Assembly: GCF_014879935.1 (NCBI RefSeq) | Contig: NZ_JACSRD010000179.1 | Span: forward strand, 1-64,000 | From: Prosthecobacter sp. | Lineage (GTDB): Bacteria > Verrucomicrobiota > Verrucomicrobiia > Verrucomicrobiales > Verrucomicrobiaceae | DNA: 64,000 bases | Direction of reading: 5' to 3' | Shown here: positions 1-13,830 of the stretch, in pieces | How positions within the stretch are numbered: position 1 is the stretch's first letter | Layout: each line of letters starts with the position of its first letter | The notes under the pieces: generated by a model | What the model was told of the DNA's origin: nothing | The model's database searches: none | What the model saw: the letters and a program-made list of their open reading frames with translations, nothing else | Program-made: the position numbers and the translations under genes

Positions 1-3000
1 ATGGTGAGCGCGGGGGCCTGTGTCTCGGTTTCCGTGATGGGCGGCGAGGTAGGTGTGGCGCTGGCTTGATTGGAGTTGGCGCTTTCGCCGCCTGCGTTCA
101 CGGCGGTGACGACGTAGTAGTAAATGGTGTCGTTGGTGAGGCCGGTGTCGATGTGGTTGGTGGCGACAATGCCGGTGGCGACGGTCGAATAAGGGCCGCC
201 ATTGGTGGTGCTGCGCTTCACGTTGTAGCTAGTGGCTCCGGCGACGCTGTTCCAGGTCAATCCGACCTGCATGTGGCCTGCGGTGGCGGCGAGGCCCGTG
301 GGAGCGGCTGGCAAAGCATCGGCTCCGTAGAACTCGACTTCCGCGACGTTGCAGAAGCCGCCGTCGGGCGAGAGATAGCGCACATAGCGGAAGCCGTTCG
401 GATGGCTGACGAGTTGCGTGGTAAGGACGTCGGCTGCGGGTGCTCCGACGATGGTGTGAAGGGTGACGGCATCGCTGAAGTCCGCGTTGTTCGCTCCTTG
501 GAACTTGCCGCCAGTCATGCGTCCTACAGCCCAGGCGGCGCGTGGTGCATAACGGATGGCGGCGATGAGTTTGCTGGCACCGGCTCCGAGGTCGAGACCA
601 GCCCAGGCTCCGTTTGCTTCGAGCGCATCGAAGGAGGTGTTGAGGTTGCCATCAAACACGGCGGCGCGGGTGGCATTGGGGTCGTTGTTCCATGAGCCGG
701 TGGTGCCGATCACCGTGCCGGTGAACTTCGGCGGCAGCGGTATGGCGCTCACGGGCGTGGAGTCGGCGCTGTTGCCGGAGGGGTGGAGGGCGCTGATGGC
801 GTAGTAGTAGAGCGTGAAGTTCGCGGCGCTGGTGTCGGTGTATCCAGTGCCGGGAAGATTCGCCGCGATGGTGGTGAAGGGGCCAGCGGGTGAGCTGCCG
901 CGTTTCAAATCGTAGCCCGTCGCACCACTGACACTGTTCCAAGCGAGAACGACCTGCGCATTGCCAGCGGTGGCGGTGAATCCTGCGGGCACCGGCGTGA
1001 ACGGTGTGGCACTGGCCGGTGCGGAGTCCGCACTTTCACCACTGCCTGTCACTGCGGAGACGACATAGTGATAGGTGATGCCGTTCGTCAGGCCGGTGTC
1101 GGTGAAGGTGTTGGTCAGCACGTTCGAGGCGATGGTTGCATACGATCCGCCGCTCACGGTGGCGCGTTTGACGTTGTAGCCGGTGGCTCCGGCGGAGGGC
1201 AGCCACGTCAAGGCGACCTGCGCATTGCCAGCCATTGCCGCCAGGTTCAGCGGCACGGGCGAGGATGCCGTCGTGCCGAGGAAGACGACTTCCGCGACGT
1301 TGCAGAAGCCATTGTTCGGCGAAAGATAGCGCACATAGCGGAAGGCGGTGTTGTTGGTGATGAGGTGCGATGTGAGAACGCCGGCGACGGGTGGCTGCTC
1401 GGCCACGGTGTGAAGCGTGACAGCATCGCTGAAGTCGGCGTTGTTGGCTCCTTGCAGCAGGCCGCCGAGCATGCGCCACTCATGGAATTGACGCGGTGCG
1501 TAGCGCACCTCGGTGATGATGCGGCTATTGCCCGCGCCGAGGTCGAGCCCGGCCCAGGCTCCGTTTCCTTCGAGCGCATCGTAGTAGGTGTTCAAGTTTC
1601 CGTCGAAGACCGCGGCTTTGGTCGTGTTGGGATCGTTGTTCCATGATCCATTCGTGCCGATGACGGTGTCCGCGAGTGGTTCGCTCGGGACACTGGTCGC
1701 AGGCGTGACGAGATTGGTGCTGGGAACGGTTTCTTCCTCGAAGCCGGGGCCGCTCCAGAGCATCTGGACTCGCGCACCGCCGCCGTCCTCACGGTGGTCC
1801 ACGCGCAGGTCGTGCAGGGAGTTTCCAGTCAGCGTGAGATTGGCAGTGACTGCTGCCGGATCGTAGGCCCAGCGGTCGATCACGAGGCTGCCGTTCACCC
1901 ACACGCGGATGCCATCATCAGCAAAGAACTTCAGCGTGTAGTTGCCTGCGTCACGCGTGAGCAGCCGTCCGCGCCAGCGGGTGCTGAAGTTGTCCGCCAC
2001 CATGCCTGTCACCGGAGCTGCGGCACCCCAGACGGCGTTCAGCGTTGTCTCCACGCGTGAGAGGAAGAGGCTGGTGAAGTCCGCCGCATTGAAATACTGC
2101 GCATAGAGGCCGTGCTGGCCGGGACTGAACACAGACACGACAACGGCGCTGGAGGTGGTCGCACCGTCTCCGTCATCATCCACCGCGCGGGCGGTGATGT
2201 GGTAGGTGCCCGCTGTGTAGCCCGTCCATGAGAAAACATACGGCGCGGTGGTGTCTTCGCCGATTTTCAGGCCGTTCGCATAAAACTCGACCTTGGTGAT
2301 GGTGCCGTCGGAATCGCTCGCCGTGGCGCTCAGGTTGGCGTTGGCACCGATGGTCGGAAACTCGGGCGAGACGCCGGTCAGCGCGATGATTGGGAGCTGG
2401 TTGCCATTGTCGGGAGCCAGCTCGCTGATGTCCACATAGCAGAGCTTTGCATTCGCCGCACCGGCAGCGGGTGCGATGGTGAGCAGTCCGTTGGTGACGG
2501 TGACGGTGGCCGTGGCTTCGTAAAAGTTCTGTCCCGCAGGCAGGCCATTGGTGAGAGCCACGCCATTTGCGCTCACTGATTGGACACCATCGGTGGCTGT
2601 TGCATCACCAGCGACGACGTGGACCGAGTAGGTGCTGTTTGGCAGCGCGATGCTCCATGAACTCGTGACATCGCCGCCCCCGTGATCCTTCTGCATGTGA
2701 ACGAGCGTGTCGTAGCGCTTGTCGGCGTTGGCATTGCGCTCGCGCGCATCCGCCGTGTTGTCGCGGCTCCAGCCGTAGGTCATGCCGTTGCCACGCGCTG
2801 CATACGGCAGACCCGAGTCGGCCACATAGCCGGAAGGCACTGCTGCGGCGGCAGTTTGGAAGTTGATCTTTGCCCGCACGAGTCCGGGCAGCTCGGTGAC
2901 ATTGATGGTCACGCTGGCGCTATCAGCGGAGTTGTTCACGGCGTCGTAAGCTCGTGCGAAAAGCGTGTGCGTGCCCTGGGCGATGTCGCTGTAGGAGAAA

Positions 3001-6000
3001 GTGTAGGGCGCAGTGGTGTCCTCGCTGACTTTGGTGGCACCATCGAAGAACTCGACACGCACGATGCCGTCGGCATCGGTCGCGGTGGCGGCGAGTGCGA
3101 CGGGATTGGGCGTGATCACGTTGGCTCCATTCAGCGGCGAAGTGAGCACCACGACGGGAGGATCGTTGGCCGGGATGCTGTTGATCCAGTCGGTGATCAA
3201 CTGCACGCCGACTTCGTCAACGAGATTGCGTCCGATGGGCGGCATCTGGTTGGCACCCACGCGATCAATGCGGTGATGCATCATCGAGCGGCTGGTAGAT
3301 TGCGGCACGATGACGCGCGGGTTCACGAGGCCGAGCGTGGTGCCCACGGAGCCGTAAATGATGCCCTGATTCGCCAGCGGCGTGTCGTATCGCGCATCCC
3401 AGAGGGCGGGCACACCGCCGGGGCGGTGGCAGTTCGCGCAGTTCGTGTCGATGTAGCTGCGGGCGCGTTTTTCGAGCGATTCGCTGGTCTGGTTCACATG
3501 CGCGAGCTTCTCATAGGTCGGGATGGTGGCCTCGTTGAGCGTGGTGTTGAACATGCCGACATGGTTGAAGGCACGCAGTTGATTGTCCGTCACGCCGGTG
3601 GCGGTGTAGGCGTGGTCTTTGTTAAACTGCCGCGTGTTCGGCCCGATGAAGCCCCCGCCCGCGTTGTTGTTGTGACACGTCGTGCAGTCCGTGCGTCCGG
3701 GGTAATACCAGGGCTGGAGGCGCGTCGTTTGCAGCTCAATGGTGCCGGTGGCAGCCAGGCCGTTGTCATGCGCATTCATCGCGATGCCAAAATATAGCGT
3801 GGCAGGCATGACGATGGTCCGGCGGCTGTATTCGACCCAGTTCGCACCATCGGCGCTGGTGTAGCTGATGAAGGTGTTGCCCTTGCGGGCCATCCGTAGC
3901 CAGCCGTTGGGATAGCTCACGAGATGCGTTCCTGCCGCTGGATAGGTGGCCGTGGTGTTGCCGCCTGCGGTGGTGCGGTAGTGATCTTCATAACCGCTCG
4001 TGTTGGCTCCACGCCCGGCATTGCTGGCCCAGGCGAAGATGAAGTAATGCGGCGAGTTCGCGGCCAAAGACTCGCGCGCCATGAGGCCGAACTTGGAATA
4101 AAGCACCGCCGGAGTGAAGGAGGTGGCCTTCATGCTGATGTCAAAGTCGCCTGTGCGCTGCTGATGCGCGAAGTGAAACTGGTCGCTCGTGCCCCAGATG
4201 TCCGCGCCGCCGCCAGTGAGCGTGAGCGTGTTTCCATTCACCGTGGTGCTGCCTGCGACGCCGGGGTTGCCGATGTCTGTCGGTGTGAAGGTGCCGACGG
4301 ATGGGATGGTGATGGGCACCACTTCGGTGACACCTTCATTGATGAGATCGGCATCGCTGTTGTCCGCACGCCAGCGGTAAGTCGCGCCATAAGAGCCGCC
4401 GCTGGCCATTTTCACCAAAACACGAGTTTCCAGCCGTTTGCGGATCGCAGGGTTGGTTTCGTCCGTCGCCAGATCGAAGTGCTTCATCGCGATGCTGCCT
4501 GCGGGGAAGCTCCAGTCGCCGGTGGCATTGAATCCGATGGTCGAACCCGTGGGCACCGTGAGCCAGCGTGATTTGATCGCCTTGTCCGACCAAAACGGCG
4601 CGTTGATGGTGTAAGGGATGAGTTTGTCGGAAGGCACGAAGTTCGCTACATCGCTGAGCAGGCCCGTGGCGCTCAGTGTGGCGGGCAAAGGCGTGCTGGG
4701 AGCCGATCCGCGCTCCAGTTTCAGAATCTTGCCTTCGGTGCTGCTCAGGCGGCAGATATACACTTCGCCATCGCTATCCACGCCCCAGCTCGAAATGCCG
4801 ATGTAGCTGCGTCCGCTGTCTGGACCGGGACCGGTGGGGACGGTGGTGAGCAACGTCTTCGTGGCCGGCGTGGTGCCTTCATTCATCGCCCACACCTTGT
4901 TCACCACATTGTCGGCGAAGAGATACTTCCCCTGAAGCTCTGGAAAGGCCGCGCCGCGATAGACATAACCGCCGATGATGGCGCTGCCCTCGCTGTGAGT
5001 GTAGTCGAGCACCGGGCGCTTGTTCACGCCGATGTATGGCGGCGTCATGTCACCGTTGTAGCCTTCTTTTTGCGGCCACTGGAAGTTCACGCCGCTGGTC
5101 TCGGTCGGTTCGATGATGTCCACCTCCTCGCGATCACCCGCGCCCACATCCGCGATGTAGGTGCGCCCCGTCACCGCATCGTGCGTCATGCGGTGCGGAC
5201 TGCGCAGGCCGATGGCGAAGGTTTCTTCATTCACACCTGATTGCCCGACGAATGGATTGTTGTTCGGGATGAAGTAGTTCTGCGTCGTCACGCCCGTGGG
5301 CACGCGAATGGGCGCATGGCTGACGTTTCCACCGCGCTTGTCCACATCCACGCGGAAGACGCCGCCCAGCAGCGGCCCGGTGATGGACTGCGCATTGGCC
5401 GAGTTGGTGTCATCGCCATTGCTCCAGTAGAGAAAGCCGTTCACAGGATGGAAAAACATGCCGCTGCCGTTGTGCCAGGTGTTCGTCGCCGCCTGATCCA
5501 TGATGACGACCTCCGAGCCCGCCAATGCGACGCCGTTCGCATCCAGCTCGAAGCGCGAGATGCGGTCCCGCATGTTCGGAATCGTGTTGTTGGGTCGCGT
5601 CGTTGGACTGCCCACCACCGTGCCCGGCGGCACCCATTCGTAATAGACGTAGATGTAGCGGTTCGTGCCCGGAGCACCTCCGAGGTCAAACTGCGGATGA
5701 AACACGAGGTTCATCAAGCCCGCGTCATCCCAGCCCTGGCACTGGTTGGAGATGTCCAGCACGAGGGTCTTCGTGGCCGTGGTGCTTGCCTTGTCGAAGA
5801 GATAAACGGCCCCTTCACGCTGCCACACCATCATCTTGTTCTGTCCCGGCACTTGAAGGATGCCCGTGGGATTGATGAAGGTGAGGTTCGGATACGCATC
5901 CACCGCCGTGAACGACCCGACCGTCGGCGGCGTCGCCGGAAAAGCATTGTCGAAGTAAGGCCCGACTGCTGGCTTGGTGGCGAGTCCGTAGGATTGGGCG

Positions 6001-6104
6001 TGAGCAAGTGCCGGAATAAAGGCAGCAGCAGTCAGCATGACTGTCGCGACAATGCGGCGACATTTGGACAAGACTGCCAAGAGGGTGGTTGGACTCTGCT
6101 TCAT
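1..6104 (-). CDS. Giant secreted multidomain protein: glucose/sorbosone dehydrogenase-like propeller, diheme cytochrome, Ig, PA14, discoidin, FN3 (3' end outside window)
   Basis: The frame stays open from the ATG at 6104 to the left edge, so at least 2034 residues. A signal peptide (about 1-30) is followed by a PQQ-type glucose/sorbosone dehydrogenase propeller (about 35-470). Next comes a region like the SO2930/HNE_0200 diheme family, with heme motifs CTTCH at 807-811 and CANCH at 889-893. A concanavalin-like domain with LMARESL and an SxDGxxW motif sits between (about 560-800). Then follow an Ig-like domain, a malectin-like domain, a second Ig-like domain, PA14 (about 1325-1460), discoidin, two FN3, a second discoidin and a third FN3. 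Probably an exported sugar oxidase coupled to c-type heme and carrying carbohydrate-binding modules; this is inference. The start is chosen because MKxS(P/S)T recurs at the starts encoded at 9522 and 10776; an in-frame ATG also lies at 6116. The true C-terminus is unknown. Confidence 0.85.
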   Translation of the reverse strand, partial: MKQSPTTLLAVLSKCRRIVATVMLTAAAFIPALAHAQSYGLATKPAVGPYFDNAFPATPPTVGSFTAVDAYPNLTFINPTGILQVPGQNKMMVWQREGAVYLFDKASTTATKTLVLDISNQCQGWDDAGLMNLVFHPQFDLGGAPGTNRYIYVYYEWVPPGTVVGSPTTRPNNTIPNMRDRISRFELDANGVALAGSEVVIMDQAATNTWHNGSGMFFHPVNGFLYWSNGDDTNSANAQSITGPLLGGVFRVDVDKRGGNVSHAPIRVPTGVTTQNYFIPNNNPFVGQSGVNEETFAIGLRSPHRMTHDAVTGRTYIADVGAGDREEVDIIEPTETSGVNFQWPQKEGYNGDMTPPYIGVNKRPVLDYTHSEGSAIIGGYVYRGAAFPELQGKYLFADNVVNKVWAMNEGTTPATKTLLTTVPTGPGPDSGRSYIGISSWGVDSDGEVYICRLSSTEGKILKLERGSAPSTPLPATLSATGLLSDVANFVPSDKLIPYTINAPFWSDKAIKSRWLTVPTGSTIGFNATGDWSFPAGSIAMKHFDLATDETNPAIRKRLETRVLVKMASGGSYGATYRWRADNSDADLINEGVTEVVPITIPSVGTFTPTDIGNPGVAGSTTVNGNTLTLTGGGADIWGTSDQFHFAHQQRTGDFDISMKATSFTPAVLYSKFGLMARESLAANSPHYFIFAWASNAGRGANTSGYEDHYRTTAGGNTTATYPAAGTHLVSYPNGWLRMARKGNTFISYTSADGANWVEYSRRTIVMPATLYFGIAMNAHDNGLAATGTIELQTTRLQPWYYPGRTDCTTCHNNNAGGGFIGPNTRQFNKDHAYTATGVTDNQLRAFNHVGMFNTTLNEATIPTYEKLAHVNQTSESLEKRARSYIDTNCANCHRPGGVPALWDARYDTPLANQGIIYGSVGTTLGLVNPRVIVPQSTSRSMMHHRIDRVGANQMPPIGRNLVDEVGVQLITDWINSIPANDPPVVVLTSPLNGANVITPNPVALAATATDADGIVRVEFFDGATKVSEDTTAPYTFSYSDIAQGTHTLFARAYDAVNNSADSASVTINVTELPGLVRAKINFQTAAAAVPSGYVADSGLPYAARGNGMTYGWSRDNTADARERNANADKRYDTLVHMQKDHGGGDVTSSWSIALPNSTYSVHVVAGDATATDGVQSVSANGVALTNGLPAGQNFYEATATVTVTNGLLTIAPAAGAANAKLCYVDISELAPDNGNQLPIIALTGVSPEFPTIGANANLSATASDSDGTITKVEFYANGLKIGEDTTAPYVFSWTGYTAGTYHITARAVDDDGDGATTSSAVVVSVFSPGQHGLYAQYFNAADFTSLFLSRVETTLNAVWGAAAPVTGMVADNFSTRWRGRLLTRDAGNYTLKFFADDGIRVWVNGSLVIDRWAYDPAAVTANLTLTGNSLHDLRVDHREDGGGARVQMLWSGPGFEEETVPSTNLVTPATSVPSEPLADTVIGTNGSWNNDPNTTKAAVFDGNLNTYYDALEGNGAWAGLDLGAGNSRIITEVRYAPRQFHEWRMLGGLLQGANNADFSDAVTLHTVAEQPPVAGVLTSHLITNNTAFRYVRYLSPNNGFCNVAEVVFLGTTASSPVPLNLAAMAGNAQVALTWLPSAGATGYNVKRATVSGGSYATIASNVLTNTFTDTGLTNGITYHYVVSAVTGSGESADSAPASATPFTPVPAGFTATAGNAQVVLAWNSVSGATGYDLKRGSSPAGPFTTIAANLPGTGYTDTSAANFTLYYYAISALHPSGNSADSTPVSAIPLPPKFTGTVIGTTGSWNNDPNATRAAVFDGNLNTSFDALEANGAWAGLDLGAGASKLIAAIRYAPRAAWAVGRMTGGKFQGANNADFSDAVTLHTIVGAPAADVLTTQLVSHPNGFRYVRYLSPDGGFCNVAEVEFYGADALPAAPTGLAATAGHMQVGLTWNSVAGATSYNVKRSTTNGGPYSTVATGIVATNHIDTGLTNDTIYYYVVTAVNAGGESANSNQASATPTSPPITETETQAPALT

Positions 6105-6141
6105 GGTTGAGGCCATGATCTAACCAACACATGCCATTCAC

Positions 6142-6173
6142 GTCGAGGTTCGAGCCATGGCACTTTAGTCCTG
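6142..6173 (-). promoter_or_regulatory. Conserved leader motif, copy 1
   Basis: A 32-bp sequence, on the plus strand starting GTCGAGGTTCG and ending CACTTTAGTCCTG, occurs 38 nt before the ATG at 6104. It recurs with two to four mismatches at 9560-9591 and 10832-10863, each time upstream of an exported protein. It may be a promoter or 5'-UTR element. In coding orientation it contains TAAAGT, a possible -10, but no convincing -35 was found. Confidence 0.5.
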
Positions 6174-6177
6174 CGGA

Positions 6178-6247
6178 GAGTATTCCCGGGCTTTAGCCCG
6201 ATCTGCCTCCGCGCGTCACGTTGGCGGGCTAAAGCCCGGGAATACTC
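6178..6247. repeat. REP pair A/B (inverted RAYT-associated palindromes)
   Basis: Two 23-bp units (6178-6200 and 6225-6247) are perfect inverted copies of each other: GAGTATTCCCGGGCTTTAG plus CCCG, and its reverse complement. Each contains the palindrome CGGGCT-TT-AGCCCG. The 24-nt spacer resembles that of the next pair. It lies between the giant secreted-protein gene and the RAYT gene. Confidence 0.9.
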
Positions 6248-6300
6248 TTTTCAGATCGTTCGATTCGAGTGAAGACGCACGGCACAAACTGCCGCACTGG

Positions 6301-6371
6301 AGTGTAGTCTCGGGCTTCAGCCCGTCTTGGCTCCGAACCGTGCGTTGACGGGCTAAAGCCCGGGAATACTC
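6301..6371. repeat. REP pair C/D
   Basis: A degenerate left unit contains CGGGCTTCAGCCCG at 6311-6324. The intact inverted right unit lies at 6349-6371 and ends 7 nt before the RAYT start codon. The spacer is similar in sequence to that of the pair at 6178-6247, suggesting duplication of the whole bipartite element. Confidence 0.85.
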
Positions 6372-6378
6372 TCCTTCA

Positions 6379-7050
6379 ATGAGCTTCAAGCCGTTCAATC
6401 CGAACGCCAAGTTGCGCATCACACGGCAAAATCTTCCGCACTGGCGGCAAGACGGCACGACCTACTTCGTGACCAGCCGCTTAGCCGATTCACTTCCCAA
6501 ATACATCGCGGACGACTGGCGCGGAAAGCGTGACGAATGGCTCGCTCAACACGGCGCGACCTGTGTGGACGATCTGGCCGAAGAACTCCGGCTCGACTAC
6601 CAACGCCTGTTCACGGACAAGTTTCACGACCTCATCGACGCAGGTCACGGTGAGTGTTTTCTCGCCCGGCGCGATTGAGCGGACGTTTTGATCAGCAAAA
6701 TGATCGAGGGCCACGCGACCTGCTTTCAACTCGGTGCGTGGTGCGTCATGCCGAATCATTTTCACGCCGTTGTGGAGCCTGCGAAGGGATCGGTGCTGGG
6801 CGAAATCGTGCAGCACTGGAAAGGCGGCAGCAGTTTCACGATCAACCGCTTGCTGGGCCGCTCTGGCAGCCTGTGGGTGAAGGAACCCTTCGATCACATC
6901 ATCCGCAACGAACTGCAATGGCGGCGGCTGACCGAGTATGTGGCGGACAATCCAAAGAAGGCTCATCTGAAGTCCGGCTATGTGCTGGGTTTCGGCGCGA
7001 AGGTCGGCCTGTCTCGTGAAGAGATATTGGAGAGTATTCGCGGGCTTTAG
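6379..7050 (+). pseudogene. REP-associated tyrosine transposase (RAYT, Y1/IS200-like), interrupted by an in-frame stop
   Basis: Two same-frame segments, 6379-6678 and 6688-7050, are separated by a single TGA at 6676-6678. The first carries the RAYT-type start of the domain (TTYFVTSRLADSLP). The second has the HUH motif MPNHFHAVV and the nucleophile-region motif YVADNPKKAHL. If the TGA is read through, the protein is 223 residues, a normal RAYT size. RAYTs are single-copy HUH nucleases thought to move REP palindromes, and this one is flanked on both sides by such repeats. Its own stop codon (TAG, 7048-7050) lies inside repeat unit E. Either a recent pseudogene or, less likely, a readthrough gene. 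The catalytic residues look intact, so decay is recent. Confidence 0.85.
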
Positions 7051-7154
7051 CCCGTCAGTGCGTGACGAGGTCATGAACACATCGAAGTCTGCTCGCAAAC
7101 CTCGGAGCCGCTGGTGTCAGCGATGCATTTTCGGGCTAAAGCCCGTGATTACTC
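7032..7154. repeat. REP pair E/F
   Basis: Units at 7032-7054 and 7132-7154 are inverted around a 77-nt spacer. The whole 123-bp element has the same length as, and a spacer similar to, the pair at 9596-9718. Unit E provides the stop codon of the RAYT gene. Unit F encodes the last residues of the beta-strand-repeat protein on the opposite strand. Confidence 0.9.
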
Positions 7155-9522
7155 TCCTCCGACGCGCCAACAATCCCACGACCCCGATCATCGCCAGCAT
7201 GGCCCGTGAAGGCTCCGGCACGCCCAGGATGCTGATGCTGCCCTGGGTGTAGAGATTGCTCGTGTCCACATACGTTCCCGAAGAGAGAGTGAGGGCCGAG
7301 TAGTCCACGTTCCAAGTGCCGGTGCGCGTGCTCAGACCCGTCCAATCAATCACTTTGAAGATATCACCAGCGGTGAAGGTGAGCGCGTTGGGGTTATTCA
7401 GTATCAGGGTAGCCCCGCTGGTGATGTCCAGCCTGCCAAAGAGCCTCAGCATATCTGCCGCGGCCTGATTGCCGGTCATGTCCGTGCCTGTGGTGGACCA
7501 GAGGTCCAGTGAGAGAAAGCTGCTGCCCCCAAGAACTGTGCTGCCGGTGCTGGAGGTGGTCACGGAGAAGTCTGAACCCGACGAAGCACCGATGGCTCCG
7601 ACTTGGAGCGTGCCGTTGAGATAGACATAGTTGTTGGCGCTTGCCGTCACACTGCCATCACCGGCGAGCGTGCCGCTAGCAGCCACCGTCACCGTGCCGC
7701 TGCCCGTGCCGGAGCCTGTGGTGTTATTCACCTCCAGAGTGCCCGCATTGATGGTCGTGCCGCCGCTATAGGTGTTGGCGGCAGTGAACTGCAAGGTGCC
7801 CGCGCCTGCCTTGGTGAGCGCTCCGCTGCCCCAGTAGTCGCCAGAGCCATCGCGCAGCGGGTTGCTGACGATTAAATCCGCCGCGCTGCTGCCCGTGGCA
7901 TCGGCCACGGTGACGAGCATGTTGTTGCCGCCCGCGATGTGATTGGCCTTGCCGTTCGAGGAGCTGATCGTCGAGGCCGCGCTGCCACCGACGGTGATGT
8001 TGCCGAGGAACTCGTAGCCTTCGTAGTTGCCGCCGTCGCTGCTGGTTTGATTCAAAGTGCCGCCATTCAGCGTGACGTGGCCGAGGACATTGAAGCGGCT
8101 GCTTTGCATCGCTCCACCGTTGAGGACTACCTGCGGGAGCCCGCCCGCAGTCGCTCCTCCACCCGCGAAGATGTTGTTGTTGGTGAAATCCAGCGTCGCG
8201 CCGCTGTTCACGGTGATGGTGCGGCTCCCGGCGTTGGCACCGAGAGTGCCCGTGGCGAGGTAACCATTGCGGATGCCGTTGGCACGCAGGGTGCCCGTAT
8301 TCACGGTGATATTACCAGTGAAGCTGTTGTCCACGTTGCTGAGGGTCAGCACGCCAGCCCCGTTCTTCGTCAAGCCGCCGTCCGTGGCGTTGTCACCGCC
8401 GAGGTTGGAATGCAGGAGCGCCTGGGAGATGGTGACGTTGAAACCGTTCGTGTCCACGACGGCACCGCCGTCGCGCACGTTCGCCAAGGTGAGACCGCCG
8501 AGGAAATCGGTCCTGTTGACCTGCGCCTGGAGCGTGCCGCCGTTGAAGTTGAACGTGGAAGCGCCCTTCACGCCCGTGCCGCCCGTCTCGCTGAAAACGC
8601 GGAGGGTGGAGAGCGTGCCGCCGTTGAGGTTGATGGTCGCGGTTCCGCCCGTGGCGGTGTCATAGCCCGAGGCCATGTTCACACCCGCGTGCCAGTCCTC
8701 GTTGTGAGCAGAATCCGTGGTCAGCGTGCCGCCGGTCAGTGTCACCGTGGCCACATTGCCGCCAGCGGAGCTGCCCGTGCCCACCGCCAGTGCCAGCCGG
8801 TTGTTGAAGCTGATCGAGCCGCCGCTGATGTTGAGATTGCCAGTCGCCGCCGAGCCGCCATGACCAAACTGGCCGCTGTTCGTGTAATCCCCGGCAACCG
8901 TGACCGTGCCTGCGTCTAGATTGACCGTGCCCACATCACCAATCGCGGTGCCAGCGATCAGACTGCCATTGACCTGCACCGTGCCTGAGGTGTTGATGTT
9001 CATCACGCCGGTCGCATGATCCCACCAGCCCGCACCCGCTCCCACCCGCAACTCGGCATTCACGCTGAGACTGCCCGTGCCGGTGCCGAAGTTGGTGAAG
9101 GCACCACCCGAGGCCGCTGTGTTGGCGAGGTTGTAAGTTCCCGTGCCATAAGAACCGCCACCGAGCAGCACCCAGCCGTAGGGCCAGCCGGTGTTCGTCA
9201 CGGTGAGAGTGCCCGCCGTGTGATCCAGGCGTCCGTTGTTATACCAGGTGCCGACTTGCAGCTCCGTGATGGTTCCGGCCGGGCTCCCTGAAATCGTGGC
9301 GATGTTTCCTGTGTTGGTGGTGATGAAAGCGCCCGCATTGTTCGGCACGACACCGCCGGTCCAGTTGGCACCCGTGTTCCAGTCATTGCTCGGGCCGTTG
9401 TTCAGCCAGTCCGCCGCCTGGGTGATGCCTGCAAGCGTTGCAAACAAGACGGCGAAGCCCGCTACAAGAGGCATGGGCAGGCGCATTGGACTTTGGGACA
9501 GAGTGGTGGAACTCGACTTCAT
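7117..9522 (-). CDS. PEP-CTERM protein with autotransporter-associated beta-strand repeats
   Basis: An exported 801-residue protein. The signal peptide (about 1-36, ending ITQAAD) is followed by Gly/Thr/Asn-rich beta-helical repeats, with recurring units such as GGTTINAGTLEVNN and KNGAGVLTLSNVDN that match the PATR repeat family. The C-terminus has the sorting signal VPEPSR, a hydrophobic stretch and ARRRR. PEP-CTERM proteins are processed by exosortase and linked to exopolysaccharide or the surface, so a surface-matrix role is inferred. The last 11 residues (VITGFSPKMHR) after the arginines are encoded by REP unit F, so the natural terminus was probably the arginine cluster. The start is the ATG at 9522, matching the MKxS(P/S)T starts of two neighbours; an ATG at 9534 is also in frame. 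Confidence 0.88.
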   Translation of the reverse strand: MKSSSTTLSQSPMRLPMPLVAGFAVLFATLAGITQAADWLNNGPSNDWNTGANWTGGVVPNNAGAFITTNTGNIATISGSPAGTITELQVGTWYNNGRLDHTAGTLTVTNTGWPYGWVLLGGGSYGTGTYNLANTAASGGAFTNFGTGTGSLSVNAELRVGAGAGWWDHATGVMNINTSGTVQVNGSLIAGTAIGDVGTVNLDAGTVTVAGDYTNSGQFGHGGSAATGNLNISGGSISFNNRLALAVGTGSSAGGNVATVTLTGGTLTTDSAHNEDWHAGVNMASGYDTATGGTATINLNGGTLSTLRVFSETGGTGVKGASTFNFNGGTLQAQVNRTDFLGGLTLANVRDGGAVVDTNGFNVTISQALLHSNLGGDNATDGGLTKNGAGVLTLSNVDNSFTGNITVNTGTLRANGIRNGYLATGTLGANAGSRTITVNSGATLDFTNNNIFAGGGATAGGLPQVVLNGGAMQSSRFNVLGHVTLNGGTLNQTSSDGGNYEGYEFLGNITVGGSAASTISSSNGKANHIAGGNNMLVTVADATGSSAADLIVSNPLRDGSGDYWGSGALTKAGAGTLQFTAANTYSGGTTINAGTLEVNNTTGSGTGSGTVTVAASGTLAGDGSVTASANNYVYLNGTLQVGAIGASSGSDFSVTTSSTGSTVLGGSSFLSLDLWSTTGTDMTGNQAAADMLRLFGRLDITSGATLILNNPNALTFTAGDIFKVIDWTGLSTRTGTWNVDYSALTLSSGTYVDTSNLYTQGSISILGVPEPSRAMLAMIGVVGLLARRRRVITGFSPKMHR

Positions 9523-9559
9523 GGTTGGGTCCATGATCAAACCAGCACATGGGATTTAC

Positions 9560-9591
9560 GTCGAGGTCCGAGGCATGGCACTTTAGTCCTG
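9560..9591 (-). promoter_or_regulatory. Conserved leader motif, copy 2
   Basis: This copy differs from the one at 6142-6173 at two positions and has identical 38-nt spacing to the start codon. Similarity extends on both sides, from the start codon through to an adjacent REP unit. Confidence 0.5.
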
Positions 9592-9595
9592 CGGA

Positions 9596-9718
9596 GAGTA
9601 TTCCCGGGCTTCAGCCCGTCAGAGCATGAAGAGGCCAAGGAGCTATCGAAGTCGGTCAGCAGGTTCGGAGCGCTTGGGTGCTAGAGATACTTCTTCGGGC
9701 TAAAGCCCGGGAATACTC
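9596..9718. repeat. REP pair G/H
   Basis: Units at 9596-9618 and 9696-9718 are inverted around a 77-nt spacer similar to that of the pair at 7032-7154. With copy 2 of the leader motif and the hairpin at 9760-9787 it accounts for the gene-free stretch 9523-9829. Confidence 0.9.
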
Positions 9719-9759
9719 TCCGCCGACAAGCACAAAGGGCGAGCCAATCACAAGCAGCA

Positions 9760-9787
9760 GGGCTGACGCCTGCATTCGGCTCAGCCC
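9760..9787 (-). terminator. Terminator-like hairpin after the PEP-CTERM gene
   Basis: GGGCTGA at 9760-9766 pairs with TCAGCCC at 9781-9787, extended by GCC/GGC after one bulged C, with a 7-nt loop. It lies 42 nt beyond the stop codon of the gene at 9830. There is no T-tract, so intrinsic termination is uncertain. Confidence 0.35.
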
Positions 9788-9829
9788 CCCGTGACAGCCA
9801 TACGACAGACCCCGTTTCCCCTTAGAAAC

Positions 9830-10564
9830 CTACTTCTTCCGGCGGCGCGTGGTCAACATTCCGAACAGGGAAAGGCCAAGCAAAACCGTCCTTGAGGGTT
9901 CGGGGACGGCAGCAGTCATTGCGAACGCATAGTCCAGGCCGGAGTTAATTCCCCCTGCTTCATACGAGCTGCCACCCGCATACAGATCTCCTCCACTTCT
10001 CTGCCAGGCGAAGACACCGTTACTTGTGGCAGAAGACGTGATCTGAAGCGCATATCCTGCCGTGCCGCTCGTTGCGGCCAAAGTAACTTCATCGCTGCCA
10101 GTGAAGTCAAATTTCAGCAACGAGGTAATGTCCGCAGAACTGGTAAAGCCGGCCGCGGCGCGACTTATGGCGTCGGACGTGAACGTCCCGGTCACCACAG
10201 ACGTTCCCAGTGTGAGCGTGGATGCGTTGACGTCCGCAACGTTGTAGATGCTGAGAACGATGGTTCCATCCGCGTAGGGGTTCCCGGATTGATACTCAAG
10301 GTAAAGCGCATCAAGTGTGAACGTGGACGCGACTTGGAAAGTCTGCGTGTTATCCCGAGGGCTGCGCACATTGCGTTCATTGAAGTTATCGGTGGTGGTC
10401 GTATAAACGGCGGAGTTGGCGGGGTTGCTGAAGTCGATGCCGAGGCTATTGCTCGGAAGCGTGCCTGTGGTGGAACCGGTAACGATCACCGCAGCTTGGA
10501 GCCCTCCGGCTGAGAAGAGTAACAGACCTGCGGTGAGAGTGAGGATGGATGTAGGTATGTTCAT
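9830..10564 (-). CDS. PEP-CTERM sorting-domain protein of unknown function
   Basis: A 244-residue exported protein. It begins MNIPTSILTLTAGLLLFSAG (signal peptide, cleavage near GLQAA) and ends with VPEPSRTVLLGLSLFGML then TTRRRKK, a standard PEP-CTERM signal. The body is Ser/Thr-rich and predicted all-beta, with no catalytic motif recognised. The start is the ATG at 10564. It overlaps the stop of the short upstream ORF as ATGA, so it may be translated by coupling to that ORF. No other start with an evident ribosome site was seen. Likely an exopolysaccharide-associated or surface protein, by family; the specific role is unknown. Confidence 0.82.
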   Translation of the reverse strand: MNIPTSILTLTAGLLLFSAGGLQAAVIVTGSTTGTLPSNSLGIDFSNPANSAVYTTTTDNFNERNVRSPRDNTQTFQVASTFTLDALYLEYQSGNPYADGTIVLSIYNVADVNASTLTLGTSVVTGTFTSDAISRAAAGFTSSADITSLLKFDFTGSDEVTLAATSGTAGYALQITSSATSNGVFAWQRSGGDLYAGGSSYEAGGINSGLDYAFAMTAAVPEPSRTVLLGLSLFGMLTTRRRKK

Positions 10565-10776
10565 AGGTTGTTCGCGGCGTGTTCTTGGGTGTGACCGTTT
10601 AAAGGGATGAAAGCGCCCGCGTTGTTCGGCACGACTCCGCCGTTCCAGTCCGAGCTTGGGCCGTTGTTCTTCCAATCTGCCGCTCGTGTGCCGACCGGAG
10701 GCGCTGCAAACGCCAGAACCAAGCCGCAGGCGATCCGAATGGACGGCGCGGTGGAGTTGGTTGGACTCGGCTTCAT
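10561..10776 (-). pseudogene. 71-residue relic of a beta-strand-repeat protein N-terminus, coupled to the PEP-CTERM gene
   Basis: The start MKPSPTN and the segment ADWKNNGPSSDWN followed by GGVVPNNAGAFI closely match the N-terminus of the 801-residue protein at 7117-9522, which has ADWLNNGPSNDWN at the same place. Six residues (TGANWT) are missing and the frame ends soon after, so this looks like the truncated 5' end of a paralogue. It keeps a signal peptide and the shared leader at 10832-10863. The TGA at 10561-10563 overlaps the ATG of the next gene, so the relic may now act as a leader ORF that delivers transcription and ribosomes to that gene. Confidence 0.65.
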
Positions 10777-10831
10777 GGTGGTAGGCTGTCGGGTTGAGAT
10801 CGGTCGTATTTGATCGGAGCGGGCTCATGTT

Positions 10832-10863
10832 GTCGAGGTCCGGGGCATAGCACTTTAGTCCTG
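10832..10863 (-). promoter_or_regulatory. Conserved leader motif, copy 3
   Basis: Third copy, two mismatches from the copy at 9560-9591 and 56 nt before the ATG at 10776. Unlike the other two, it has no REP unit beside it. That argues the motif is conserved for its own sake and is not simply part of the REP element. Confidence 0.5.
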
Positions 10864-10917
10864 TATGGCCGTCTGGCGGAGGATTGAGCCTTTCCGCTGG
10901 CGTTCACTGCCCGTAGA

Positions 10918-13053
10918 ATGCCGCACGCTTTCATGCCCTCCCGCCTCCAGTTTGTCGTCATCACGCTTCTCACTCTCACCCTCGCGGCCCATGCTGAGGA
11001 CGGGAAGACGCTGACGACCATCGCCGCTGTGCATGCGCTCATGCCAGAGGAGGCCGCGCGAAATCACCCGGTGCATCTGCGCGGCACCATCACCTTTTAC
11101 AATCCTCTCTACAGCCTCGGCTTCATTCAGGATGAAACCGGCGGCATCTACTTCAAGCCTCCTCCTACGGGTGCTGCCGACGCTCCAATGCTCACTGCCG
11201 GGGATCGCGTGGAAATGATCGGCGTCACCCGGCGCGGGCAGTTTTCACCCAGCATCTCGCTCCATCCTGACGATGCGCCCCGCACGGACAAACCTGTCGT
11301 GATGCGTGTCGTGAAGCTCAGCACCGGCCCGCTCCCCGAAGCACCGCTCGTGAGCGTGGACCGCATCAACACCGGCGATTTCCATGACCAGTTCGTGCGA
11401 GTCCGCGCGACGATTCGCCAGGTGGTGGAACACACAGACCACAGAGTCGAGCTGCTCAATGTGGATGCCAGCAGCCGCTACGGTCCGCTCAATGTCATCT
11501 TGATGTGCGCGAAGAATCAGCAGCCCGCCGTCAAGCATTGGGAGAATGTCGAAGCCGAGATCAGCGGCGTCGTTTCTGGCGAAGTGGATGAGCGCAACCA
11601 GCTCCGCAAAGCGACCTTGCTCGTCGCCACCGTCGCGCAGATCAAGCCGGACCTCACCGCCATGCAGGCATGCTTTGACCAGCCATCGCGGGGCTTTCGC
11701 GAGCTGCTGCATTACCGCCCCCCGCAGCCCGGCGGCACGGAGACACGGCAGCACGTCTCCGGCATCGTCACGCTGGTGCATCCCTCGCGCGGCGGCTACT
11801 ACCTCGGCAGCCCGCACGGCGGCCTCTGGGTGCGCACTCCGCAGCAGCCGCCCGTGCAGACCGGTGATGAGCTGAACGTCATCGGCTTCATCGCCGGTGG
11901 CACCGACGGCGTGTGGCTGGAGGACGGTATCCACCGCATTGAGCGAAAAGCCGTGCCCTTCGCGCCGCTCGTGCGCACCACGGAAAAAATCGCCTCGGGC
12001 ACTGACTTCGGCAGCCTCGTCCAGGTGGAAGGCCAGTTGATCGACCAGTTCGATCGCCCGAGCCACCGCCTGCTCTACCTCGGTGCGGAAGGACACACCT
12101 TCTATGCACGCCTCGCTGAAAGCGCCGATACCACCCCGCTCAGCTCTTTTGAAAACGGAAGCTGGCTCCGCCTCACCGGCGTCTGTGAAAAACCCAACGA
12201 TCCAGCCGCTCGCGAATCTTTCTCGCTCCTCCTGCGCGAAAATGCCGACATCGCCCTCATCAGCCGCCCGCCGTGGTTCACCGCCCAGCGCCTGCGCTGG
12301 CTGCTCGGCGGCCTGCTCGCACTCACCGCCATCATCAGCGCCTGGGTGCTGCTTTTGCGCCGACAAGTCACCCGCCAGACCCAGGTTATCGCGCATCAGC
12401 TCGAGCAAAAAACACTCAGCGACGAACGCCGCCGCATCGCCCGCGAGCTGCACGACACCCTCGAGCAGCAGCTCGCCGGTGTGAACATCCACCTCGACAC
12501 CGTCGCCGAGTGCGCCCCCGATCTGCCAGCGCCCGTTGCTAGCGCTCTCGACAACGCCCGCGCCATGCTCGCCCACAGCCGCACCGAGGCGCACCGCTCC
12601 ATCCTCGAACTCCGCTCCCGCGCCATCGAGCAGGCCGGCCTCGTCGGTGCCGTGCGCGAGTCCATTGATGCCCTCCAGCTCATCACCCCGCGCATCACTC
12701 TCGAAATCGAAGGCGAGGAACAGCGCCAGTCACAGCACATCGAGTTTCAGCTCTTGCGCATCATTCAGGAATCCATCACCAACGCCCTCAAACATGCCGA
12801 AGCCGCCAACATCACCGTGCGCTTCCATTTCACGCAGGAAGAACTCCACGTCACCATCACCGACGACGGCACCGGCTTCGACGCCACACGGCCGCCCGCC
12901 GTGCACAGCACCCAGTTTGGCCTCCTCGGCATGAGAGAACGCGCCGCCAAGATCCGCGCCACACTCACCATCCACAGCACCCCGGGCAACGGCTGCACCA
13001 TCGCCGTCACCGCTCCCACCCGGCCCACCAGCCTTCACCTCCGCACCCCATGA
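10918..13053 (+). CDS. Membrane sensor histidine kinase (NarL/DesK-like, HisKA_3)
   Basis: A 711-residue kinase with a signal sequence (ends AAHAED) and a large periplasmic region (about 30-455) with OB-fold-like repeats (HLRGTITFYN, HVSGIVTLVH). One transmembrane helix follows (about 459-480, LRWLLGGLLALT). The cytoplasmic part carries the HisKA_3 dimerisation box ERRRIARELHDTLEQ with the phospho-acceptor His512. An HATPase domain follows, with N-box ESITNALKHAEA and G-box DDGTGFD. It overlaps the response regulator by ATGA at 13050-13053, so the two form one operon. The signal is unknown; the periplasmic domains suggest a ligand outside the membrane. An alternative start is the ATG at 10933. 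Confidence 0.92.
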   Translation: MPHAFMPSRLQFVVITLLTLTLAAHAEDGKTLTTIAAVHALMPEEAARNHPVHLRGTITFYNPLYSLGFIQDETGGIYFKPPPTGAADAPMLTAGDRVEMIGVTRRGQFSPSISLHPDDAPRTDKPVVMRVVKLSTGPLPEAPLVSVDRINTGDFHDQFVRVRATIRQVVEHTDHRVELLNVDASSRYGPLNVILMCAKNQQPAVKHWENVEAEISGVVSGEVDERNQLRKATLLVATVAQIKPDLTAMQACFDQPSRGFRELLHYRPPQPGGTETRQHVSGIVTLVHPSRGGYYLGSPHGGLWVRTPQQPPVQTGDELNVIGFIAGGTDGVWLEDGIHRIERKAVPFAPLVRTTEKIASGTDFGSLVQVEGQLIDQFDRPSHRLLYLGAEGHTFYARLAESADTTPLSSFENGSWLRLTGVCEKPNDPAARESFSLLLRENADIALISRPPWFTAQRLRWLLGGLLALTAIISAWVLLLRRQVTRQTQVIAHQLEQKTLSDERRRIARELHDTLEQQLAGVNIHLDTVAECAPDLPAPVASALDNARAMLAHSRTEAHRSILELRSRAIEQAGLVGAVRESIDALQLITPRITLEIEGEEQRQSQHIEFQLLRIIQESITNALKHAEAANITVRFHFTQEELHVTITDDGTGFDATRPPAVHSTQFGLLGMRERAAKIRATLTIHSTPGNGCTIAVTAPTRPTSLHLRTP

Positions 13054-13685
13054 GCAAACCACCCGCCACCATTCGCGTGCTCCTCGTGGACGACCACTTC
13101 TTCGTCCGCTCCGGCGTCAAAGTCTCCCTCGAAGCCGAAGGCGATCTGCAAGTCGTCGCCGAAGCCGACAGCACCGCCAGCGCCGTGGAGCAATACCGAC
13201 AGCATCAGCCCGAAGTCACCCTCATGGACGGCAATCTGCCCGATGGCAGCGGCATCCAGGCCATCACCGAAATCCGCGCCGAGTTCCCCCAGGCCCGCAT
13301 CATCATGCTCACCATCAACGAGACCGAGGAAGACGTGTATCAAGCCGTCGCCGCCGGAGCCACCGGCTACCTCACCAAATCCTCCGGCCGCAAAGAAATG
13401 CTCCACGCCATCCGCGAAGCCGCGCGGGGCAAACGCTACTTTCCAGCCGAACTCGCCGCCCGCCTCAACGCCCGCCGCGCCCGCCCCGAACTCACCACCC
13501 GCGAGACCGAAGTCCTCCAGCACGTCGTCGCCGGCACCCCCAACAAAAACATCGCCGACGTCCTCGGCTGCACCGAGCAGACCATCAAAAACCACCTCAG
13601 CCACATCTTCGCCAAACTCGACGTCCAAGACCGCACCTCCGCCACCGTGACGGCATTGCGCCGAGGTTTGGTGCGGCTGGAGTAA
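13050..13685 (+). CDS. LuxR/NarL-family response regulator
   Basis: A 211-residue partner of the kinase directly upstream. The receiver domain has the acidic pair Asp14-Asp15, phospho-acceptor Asp60 (LMDGNLPD), Thr88 and Lys110. The C-terminal GerE helix-turn-helix spans about 148-198 (LTTRETEVLQHVVAG and TIKNHLSHIFAKL). It should bind DNA after phosphorylation; target genes are not evident. Its final codons GAG-TAA lie inside a REP unit (13680-13701), so the repeat abuts or has replaced the original terminus. Confidence 0.95.
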   Translation: MSKPPATIRVLLVDDHFFVRSGVKVSLEAEGDLQVVAEADSTASAVEQYRQHQPEVTLMDGNLPDGSGIQAITEIRAEFPQARIIMLTINETEEDVYQAVAAGATGYLTKSSGRKEMLHAIREAARGKRYFPAELAARLNARRARPELTTRETEVLQHVVAGTPNKNIADVLGCTEQTIKNHLSHIFAKLDVQDRTSATVTALRRGLVRLE

Positions 13686-13830
13686 TCGCGGGCTTCAGCC
13701 CTCCCAAACGCTACCAGCCTCCAGCGCCAACGAACTCCCAACAAGCTCCCTCTGCGAGCACAACGCATTCAGCGACTCGACCCGCACGGCTTTGAATCAA
13801 GCGCTGTCGGGCTAAAGCCCGGGAATCCTC
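13680..13830. repeat. REP pair I/J
   Basis: Unit I (13680-13701, a GAGTAATCGCGGGCTTCAG variant) and inverted unit J (13808-13830) surround a 106-nt spacer unrelated to the other spacers. With the element, the gene-free stretch 13686-13985 holds nothing else recognisable. Confidence 0.8.

Follow-up and report, generated by a model that had tools for sequence, protein, structure and literature searches.

REP systems and the present locus

In a REPtron, a RAYT gene encoding an HUH-Tyr protein is flanked by inverted REPs, each RAYT has one REP family, and orthologous RAYTs stay in place while their REPs change, as described in three papers (Nunvar 2010, PMC2817692; Quentin 2018, PMC6006769; Corneloup 2021, PMC8266576). 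In Stenotrophomonas, each genome carries 37 to 427 perfect REP copies (Nunvar 2010, PMC2817692). Two inverted REPs and their spacer can form a single unit, the REPIN, and the REPINs described by Bertels and Rainey 2011 (PMC3116915) are abundant and genome-wide. Verrucomicrobial REPs are also in print, and the families reported by Di Nocera 2013 (PMC3733652) are abundant, carry a GTAG or GTGG tag, are often paired and sometimes lie within genes, with Opitutus terrae being highly enriched in GTAG repeats.

The locus described here lies in a 64-kb window, the whole stretch of DNA that was analysed, and shares all of the above features except abundance, genome-wide spread and the exact tag. Unlike in those REPtrons, its foot tetranucleotide is mostly GTAT, the residue at the position of Q95 in E. 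coli TnpA_REP is Val, its ~10 copies lie nearly all within 10 kb, and its RAYT is broken. Its REPINs are few and local with three spacer classes, and a GTAT foot escapes a GT[AG]G search of the kind outlined in Quentin 2018 (PMC6006769). The sequence-only reading had considered such a system less described in Verrucomicrobia, which is right in part, given that the O. terrae repeats are published (PMC3733652) and that the pairs are a known form, the REPIN. The break in the RAYT, the local confinement, and the altered foot were absent from that reading. We interpret the locus as a REPtron, in which a RAYT (TnpA_REP, an HUH single-strand endonuclease) accompanies its own small and mostly local REPIN family, with a probability of roughly 0.7. 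The RAYT is most likely the enzyme that copies the REP pairs of the window.

Five inverted pairs with three spacer classes

The window holds ten arms of a 23-bp unit, arranged in five inverted pairs as had been claimed, the second of which starts at 6302 and not at 6301. The core CGGGCTNNAGCCCG occurs 19 times with up to 2 mismatches versus 6.9 expected, and as 100 shuffles gave at most 14, a chance origin was rejected. All nine exact copies of the core in the window are arms, and the remaining arm has 1 mismatch. REPIN 1 (6178–6247; arms 6178–6200 and 6225–6247) and REPIN 2 (6302–6371; arms 6302–6324 and 6349–6371, the left with a GTAG foot) are both 70 bp. Their supposedly common short spacers agree in length, at 24 nt, but are only weakly alike in sequence (13/24 identical). 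REPIN 3 (7032–7154; arms 7032–7054 and 7132–7154) and REPIN 4 (9596–9718; arms 9596–9618 and 9696–9718) are both 123 bp with 77-nt spacers. As the same reading had it, these two spacers are homologous, with 45/77 positions identical without gaps, equal to the maximum of 20,000 random 77-nt pairs (mean 20.3). REPIN 5 (13680–13830, 151 bp; arms 13680–13702 and 13808–13830) has a 105-nt spacer resembling that of a REPIN at a different place in the relative G015, which shares the positions of REPIN 1, REPIN 2, and REPIN 3. Folding of the first four pairs as single-stranded DNA gave hairpins with z-scores of -6.6 to -10 relative to shuffles.

A broken RAYT, the break probably recent

The RAYT gene (6379–7050, forward strand; 223 codons plus stop) had been placed in the middle of the cluster. 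It is present but sits closer to the left end, and its last codons and stop fall within the left arm of REPIN 3. An overlooked in-frame TGA at codon 100 (6676–6678, forward strand) breaks the gene; in each of the three orthologs examined, this position is occupied by a sense codon. The HUH motif NHFHA and the catalytic Tyr motif YVADNP align with those of 49 other RAYTs, apart from the Tyr missing in the broken G053 copy. Profile scores are low, with 21.9 bits for the window RAYT and 20.0 for its G015 ortholog against Pfam Y1_Tnp, both below the curated cut-off of 23, which C120, a 57% relative of GTAG type, passes with 35.3. Comparison of the intact G015 ortholog with structures returned 4er8, which we take to be E. 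coli TnpA_REP, as the sole chain below E 0.1, with a weak E of 0.011.

At a threshold of at least 70% identity to the window RAYT, orthologs are found only in the window's own genome (G000), G015, G028, and G053, with the next best at 57%. The own genome holds a single copy (next best again 57%). The G015 gene is intact and syntenic, and the window gene, its stop aside, is 93% identical to it, so the break is probably recent. The G028 gene is also intact, while the G053 copy is broken, has lost its Tyr, and is adjoined by a REPIN resembling REPIN 3. In all four genomes, copies of the RAYT's own REP lie to either side of the gene. The dN/dS of the RAYT is 0.075 between G015 and G028 and 0.157 between the window and G015, compared with 0.134 for the neighbouring histidine kinase and 0.162 for the response regulator in the latter pair. 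By these ratios, the G015 and G028 RAYTs are under purifying selection.

A Y1 HUH enzyme beside hairpins would also fit a standard insertion sequence of the IS200/IS605 type that left derelict copies of its ends. This is very improbable, as the protein is of RAYT type and is present in the genome as one copy, not many, with a conserved, syntenic place in G015. The repeats, for their part, are paired in inverted orientation, carry foot tetranucleotides, and occur also without the gene.

Locality of the REPIN family

In the 7.74-Mb genome of the window, all 10 REP copies with up to 2 mismatches lie inside the window, and a genome-wide family was rejected on this basis. Outside the window there are only three 3-mismatch matches of GTAG type. 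Across the four genomes, 39 matches have at most 2 mismatches, and 32 of them are no more than 10 kb away from the RAYT (10/10 in G000, 12/17 in G015, 5/7 in G028, and 5/5 in G053). As G015 is assembled in ~6 contigs, fragmentation does not explain the locality there. Five pairs around a RAYT with almost none elsewhere in a Verrucomicrobiales-type genome appears unusual for REPINs. Among the other families of the same genome, that of RAYT C278a is also local (11 of 14 genome-wide matches within 3.4 kb), that of C120 is dispersed, with matches on seven contigs besides the window's, and the matches of the C157b family are scattered.

The repeat is therefore nearly absent elsewhere in the genome, which the sequence-only reading had taken as evidence against its proposal but which shows locality and not a missing link to the RAYT. 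With up to 3 mismatches, there are 13 matches in G000, 23 in G015, 10 in G028, and 5 in G053, versus 101 in total in 138 relatives lacking a RAYT ortholog (mean 0.7), although a few close copies do occur there. The link stands because the repeat is not equally frequent without the RAYT. Six 1-mismatch matches occur where no ortholog was found (G019, G023, two in G036, G057, and G062), and those retrieved from G019, G036, and G057 proved to be paired.

Alternatively, a formerly genome-wide family may be declining, its far copies having been lost while linkage or local selection kept the near ones. One dispersed pair occupies an orthologous site in G015 and G028, and in the window's genome the far side of that site is different; pairs of G015 and G019 follow the same left flank, and the RAYT is broken in both the window's genome and G053. 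However, the G015 and G028 families are mostly local too despite intact RAYTs under purifying selection, and the break in the window is probably recent, making this explanation unlikely.

Neighbouring genes and possible movement of pairs

Gene A, encoding a large protein (3–6116, reverse strand; its frame open at the window end), is the left neighbour of the cluster. Gene B (7117–9540, reverse strand), encoding a PATR (passenger-associated-transport) repeat protein, lies between REPIN 3 and REPIN 4. To the right are the HisKA_3 histidine kinase (10918–13053, forward strand), syntenic in G015, and the Response_reg and GerE response regulator (13050–13685, forward strand), which ends within REPIN 5 and takes its stop codon from the left arm. 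The GGCACTTTAGTCCTGC motif (6159–6174, forward strand) adjoins REPIN 1 and a second copy (9577–9592) adjoins REPIN 4. A single motif copy at 10849–10864 (forward strand) marks an empty site; in G015, a REPIN there has the motif to its left and to its right. Two copies of a 22-nt stretch enclose this 148-bp pair, and the window has one copy, with homology on either side. Beyond the copies beside REPIN 1 and REPIN 4, there is no exact GGCACTTTAGTCCTGC copy in the own genome, and this confinement may help explain the sites of REPIN 1, REPIN 4, and the G015 pair.

The filled and empty site suggests that the pair moves as a unit, as does the finding that 13 of 15 further places from seven genomes hold a simple inverted REP pair. 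Together with the same REP being present at the orthologous RAYT locus in each of three relatives, this supports the proposal that RAYT-linked pairs act as units. Y1 enzymes are not known to leave a target duplication, with which the 22-nt duplication at the filled site is at odds, and the pair may instead have been lost from the window by recombination between the 22-nt repeats. For two dispersed G015 pairs, no clean empty site was found in the window's genome, one having a different far side and the other having its halves on separate contigs.

It is also conceivable, albeit quite improbable, that segmental duplication and recombination of local regulon promoters spread the repeats, the hairpins being retained for a regulatory or terminator role and the RAYT a bystander. 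REPIN 1 and REPIN 4 are 87% alike over 119 nt, up to and including the left arm, so at least one was perhaps moved by duplication or recombination. Both adjoin the same motif, REPIN 1 upstream of gene A and REPIN 4 upstream of gene B. The motif is also upstream of the kinase, and a motif copy borders the G015 pair on each side. Nonetheless, no further window pairs have common flanks among the listed repeats, and the ends of genes are overlapped by REPIN 3 and REPIN 5. The kinase, regulator, and motif are present in G008 and G011, which have no REP (up to 5 mismatches, 20 kb) and no RAYT ortholog, while the same REP accompanies the RAYT in G028 and G053. The tblastx locus comparison, dominated by low-complexity matches, was used only for regulator presence in G008 and G011 and for rough gene order.

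Under the REPtron reading, the REPINs would be inverted REP pairs that fold on single-stranded DNA and form the unit of movement, with the RAYT cutting and rejoining the hairpins at the foot tetranucleotide. Most new copies would settle close to the donor, perhaps as a result of excision and re-insertion sharing one single-stranded stretch of lagging-strand template. Because its RAYT carries a stop, the family is probably largely frozen in the window's genome unless another RAYT there serves it.

Foot tetranucleotide and the Q95 position

The six REP feet flanking the window RAYT are not uniform, comprising four GTAT, one GTAA, and one GTAG, and mostly do not fit GT[AG]G; its clade may read GTAT via the Val replacing Gln. 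Feet ending in A or T occur in 7 of 91 RAYTs, with four origins, and Q/H is absent at the Q95 position in all 7, whereas none of the 79 RAYTs with Q/H has such feet. Five RAYTs without Q/H retain a GTGG foot. On the tree this link comprises four changes (three in an earlier tree of 43 rows), too few for significance by independent pairs. The C26 repeat also contains the octamer GAGTATTC, making cross-recognition possible.

RAYTs within core genes and wider meaning

In relatives, whole RAYTs lie in frame within the genes for LeuRS, ClpB, and CarB, an observation more novel than the window locus itself. The host core genes look like sole copies, and such in-frame RAYTs with REPs argue against the view, as put in Quentin 2018 (PMC6006769), that a REPtron is not transposed as one unit.

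A tentative broader picture, which we rate at somewhat below even odds, is that Verrucomicrobiales RAYTs and REPs form many small private systems with their own tags, several replicating chiefly locally. The RAYT and flanking REP cassette would jump, even in frame into leuS and clpB linkers, and the residue at the Q95 position would help determine which base ends the tag, making specificity readable from sequence. For the question of how RAYTs copy REPINs, ten copies in 8 kb are far simpler to test than hundreds dispersed, and the system offers intact and broken RAYTs in close species and a filled and empty site. The link between foot and residue gives a direct prediction for altering RAYT specificity in laboratory strains.

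Repeat pairs and the RAYT gene between them

The repeat unit (REP), GAGTATTC-N-CGGGCTTYAGCCCG, occurs ten times in the window at ≤2 mismatches, and its core gives 19 matches against 6.9 expected, a count reached by 0/100 shuffles. The ten copies form five inverted pairs (REPINs), at 6178-6247 (REPIN 1), 6302-6371 (REPIN 2), 7032-7154 (REPIN 3), 9596-9718 (REPIN 4) and 13680-13830 (REPIN 5). By spacer length (24, 77 or 105 nt) they fall into three groups. REPIN 3 and REPIN 4, both with 77 nt, have homologous spacers (45/77 identical), and REPIN 5 is similar to a pair at another place in the related genome G015 (74% over 149 columns). As single-stranded DNA, REPIN 1 to 4, the pairs folded, are single hairpins. 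REPIN 3 contains the last codons and stop of the RAYT gene, and REPIN 5 the stop of the response regulator (13050..13685, +). REPIN 1 and REPIN 4 have 119 nt in common at 87%, which favours recombination or duplication for these two.

The RAYT gene (6379..7050, +) lies between REPIN 2 and REPIN 3 and has 223 codons with an in-frame TGA at 6676-6678. Orthologs are intact in G015 (93% identity) and G028 (72%), and broken by three stops in G053 (71%). All three have a sense codon at this position, so the TGA is either a nonsense change of the window's own genome or an assembly error. Alignment shows the HUH and Tyr motifs, and the best solved relative is TnpA_REP 4er8, a weak match (E 0.011). Purifying selection has acted on the gene, with dN/dS of 0.075 for G015 vs G028 and 0.157 for the window vs G015; in the latter comparison the neighbouring kinase and regulator give 0.134 and 0.162.

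An empty and a filled site upstream of the kinase

The window shows synteny with G015, at ~90% across bases 1-9429 and at 93% across 10845-13686, and REPINs 1, 2 and 3 are at the same places in both. Upstream of the histidine kinase (10918..13053, +), G015 carries a 148-bp REPIN flanked by two copies of a motif-bearing 22-nt stretch; the window has one such stretch and no REPIN, with homology to G015 on the left (77% over 229 columns) and right (93%) of the site. G008 and G011 conserve both the kinase and the regulator; they carry a single copy of the motif and, in 20 kb, no REP at ≤5 mismatches. The filled state is therefore probably derived, a whole pair having come in at the G015 site, as the sequence-only reading had proposed for pairs in the window. 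The alternative is that the window lost its REPIN through recombination between two flanking copies of the stretch. REPIN 5 is absent in G015, but its site is uninformative because the sequence after the G015 regulator differs.

The motif itself, GGCACTTTAGTCCTGC, lies at 6159-6174 and 9577-9592, upstream of gene A (3..6116, −) and gene B (7117..9540, −) respectively, and with two mismatches at 10849-10864, upstream of the kinase, near which G008 and G011 also keep it. A search of the own genome found no further exact copies. It is possibly an operator for the adjoining response regulator. A second, partial copy of the gene B 5' end and promoter precedes the kinase at 10606-10870. Outside repeats, G015 has no match to the region (~9430-10640) in which gene C (9830-10828) and REPIN 4 are located.

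Locality of REP families

At ≤3 mismatches, the own genome (7.74 Mb, 286 contigs) holds 13 unit matches, the ten arms and three others of GTAG type with exactly 3 mismatches each. Across 142 genomes from the order, the own genome among them, the four carriers of a RAYT ortholog (own, G015, G028, G053) have 13, 23, 10 and 5 matches, and the 138 non-carriers 101 altogether, spread over 37 genomes. The highest non-carrier counts (G057 19, G005 11) are chiefly AAGTA.. types. Six 1-mismatch matches are listed in ortholog-less genomes (two in G036, one each in G019, G023, G057 and G062), which weakens a strict REP-RAYT link. At ≤2 mismatches, 32/39 matches in the four carriers lie ≤10 kb from the RAYT (10/10, 12/17, 5/7 and 5/5 per carrier). 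Fragmentation does not explain this locality in G015, as its assembly has ~6 contigs.

Fifteen further places were fetched from seven genomes (G015 seven; G019 and G057 two each; G028, G036, G053 and G055 one each), of which that of G053 and one of G015 are within 10 kb of the RAYT. A simple inverted pair is present at 13 (≤4 mismatches to a relaxed pattern); of the remainder, one is a single arm (L255) and one a pair clustered with further arms (L259). Four REPs of GTAG type, all pointing the same way, recur in steps of exactly 169 bp at G057:C30:131042-131571.

The PF01797 profile has 27 matches in the own genome, and RAYT-protein matches mark 12 loci, all RAYT-like in appearance. A palindromic word of ≥14 nt is common to both 350-nt flanks in 9/12 RAYTs vs 3/3671 control segments; other Y1 genes are positive in 5/14 cases. 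Of the RAYTs failing this test, C157b is flanked on either side by a longer repeat, C26 has repeats on one side, and C38a shares no word between its flanks but is adjoined by GTAG-foot hairpins. Copies at the own locus and elsewhere, counted at ≤3 mismatches in the fetched stretches without a chance control and with some short patterns, number 8/0 for the window, 5/0 for C26, 11/0 for C278a, 13/5 for C278b, 6/7 for C3, 3/3 for C204a, 2/3 for C120, 4/2 for C157a, 9/29 for C157b, 6/1 for C213 and 3/3 for C148. Whole-genome checks disagree between the C278a family, which is local (11/14 matches in 3.4 kb), and the C120 family, which is not (3/14 at its own RAYT). Some REP families, but not all, are therefore local.

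The REP foot and a protein residue

Q95, E100, H101 and R104 are among the E. coli TnpA_REP residues described at the GTAG foot tetranucleotide (Quentin 2018, PMC6006769). Val aligns to Q95 in the window RAYT and its G015 ortholog, and the six feet flanking the window RAYT are GTAT (four), GTAA (one) and GTAG (one). A wider set comprised 108 RAYTs, 80 from newly taken loci and 28 of 50 earlier rows, leaving out 21 duplicates and the unclear C3. Of these, 91 (90 different) had a single commonest foot and a readable residue, and the other 17 were set aside. In 7/91 the foot has A or T as its last base, and the residue is V in three of them, M in three and K in one, never Q/H. None of the 79/91 RAYTs with Q/H has such a foot (43 GTAG, 31 GTGG, 5 GTAC). 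Five RAYTs without Q/H retain GTGG. Fisher's test gives p 1e-7 with kinship ignored; on the tree the A/T foot has four origins, for which an independent-pairs test lacks power. The counts are suggestive of a link between the residue at the Q95 position and the last base of the foot.

RAYTs inside host genes

Eighteen RAYT matches, one of them in the own genome (C3), were chosen for open frames >500 aa. Pfam, run on eight RAYT-bearing frames, places host domains either side of the RAYT in seven: LeuRS, ClpB, CarB, HsdR, an Eco57I-type methylase, a dehydrogenase/oxidoreductase fusion and, in the own genome, a glycosyltransferase. The eighth has the RAYT followed by a NUDIX domain.

The LeuRS hosts, L163 5666-8842 (G094:C57) and L166 4192-7695 (G128:C213), include a whole RAYT with flanking REPs in frame, the Pfam assignment being based on the G094 protein. 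In both genomes the interrupted gene is the sole strong LeuRS editing-domain match; much weaker matches are probably other synthetases, and the interrupted leuS seems to be the sole LeuRS gene present. An uninterrupted LeuRS gene is found in G125, a member of the same genus. In the ClpB host, L157 5650-8994 (G018:C6), the RAYT is in frame, profile positions 1-514 and 521-852 are in one frame, and the gene is the sole match above the family cut-off in G018. Further in-frame RAYTs lie in a carbamoyl-phosphate synthase large subunit gene (L165 1103-5239, G115:C43) and, with GGCGACGAATCGTCGCC-type REPs, in a group 1 glycosyltransferase gene (L045 8824-10482, C3). The G015 LeuRS (L226) has its editing-domain match split by ~100 nt with the frame open, perhaps an in-frame insert. 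In-frame REPs are already described (PMC3733652); whole in-frame RAYTs were not found in the literature searched.

Proposed mechanism

E. coli TnpA_REP is reported to cut and join single-stranded REPs in vitro (PMC8266576). Here, the RAYT would most likely recognise the folded REP and its foot and then cut, and the pair would be passed on via single-stranded DNA. Landing near the donor would be expected if both steps share one exposed lagging-strand template. As its own RAYT is broken, the REP family is expected to be frozen in the window's genome, unless a different RAYT acts on it.
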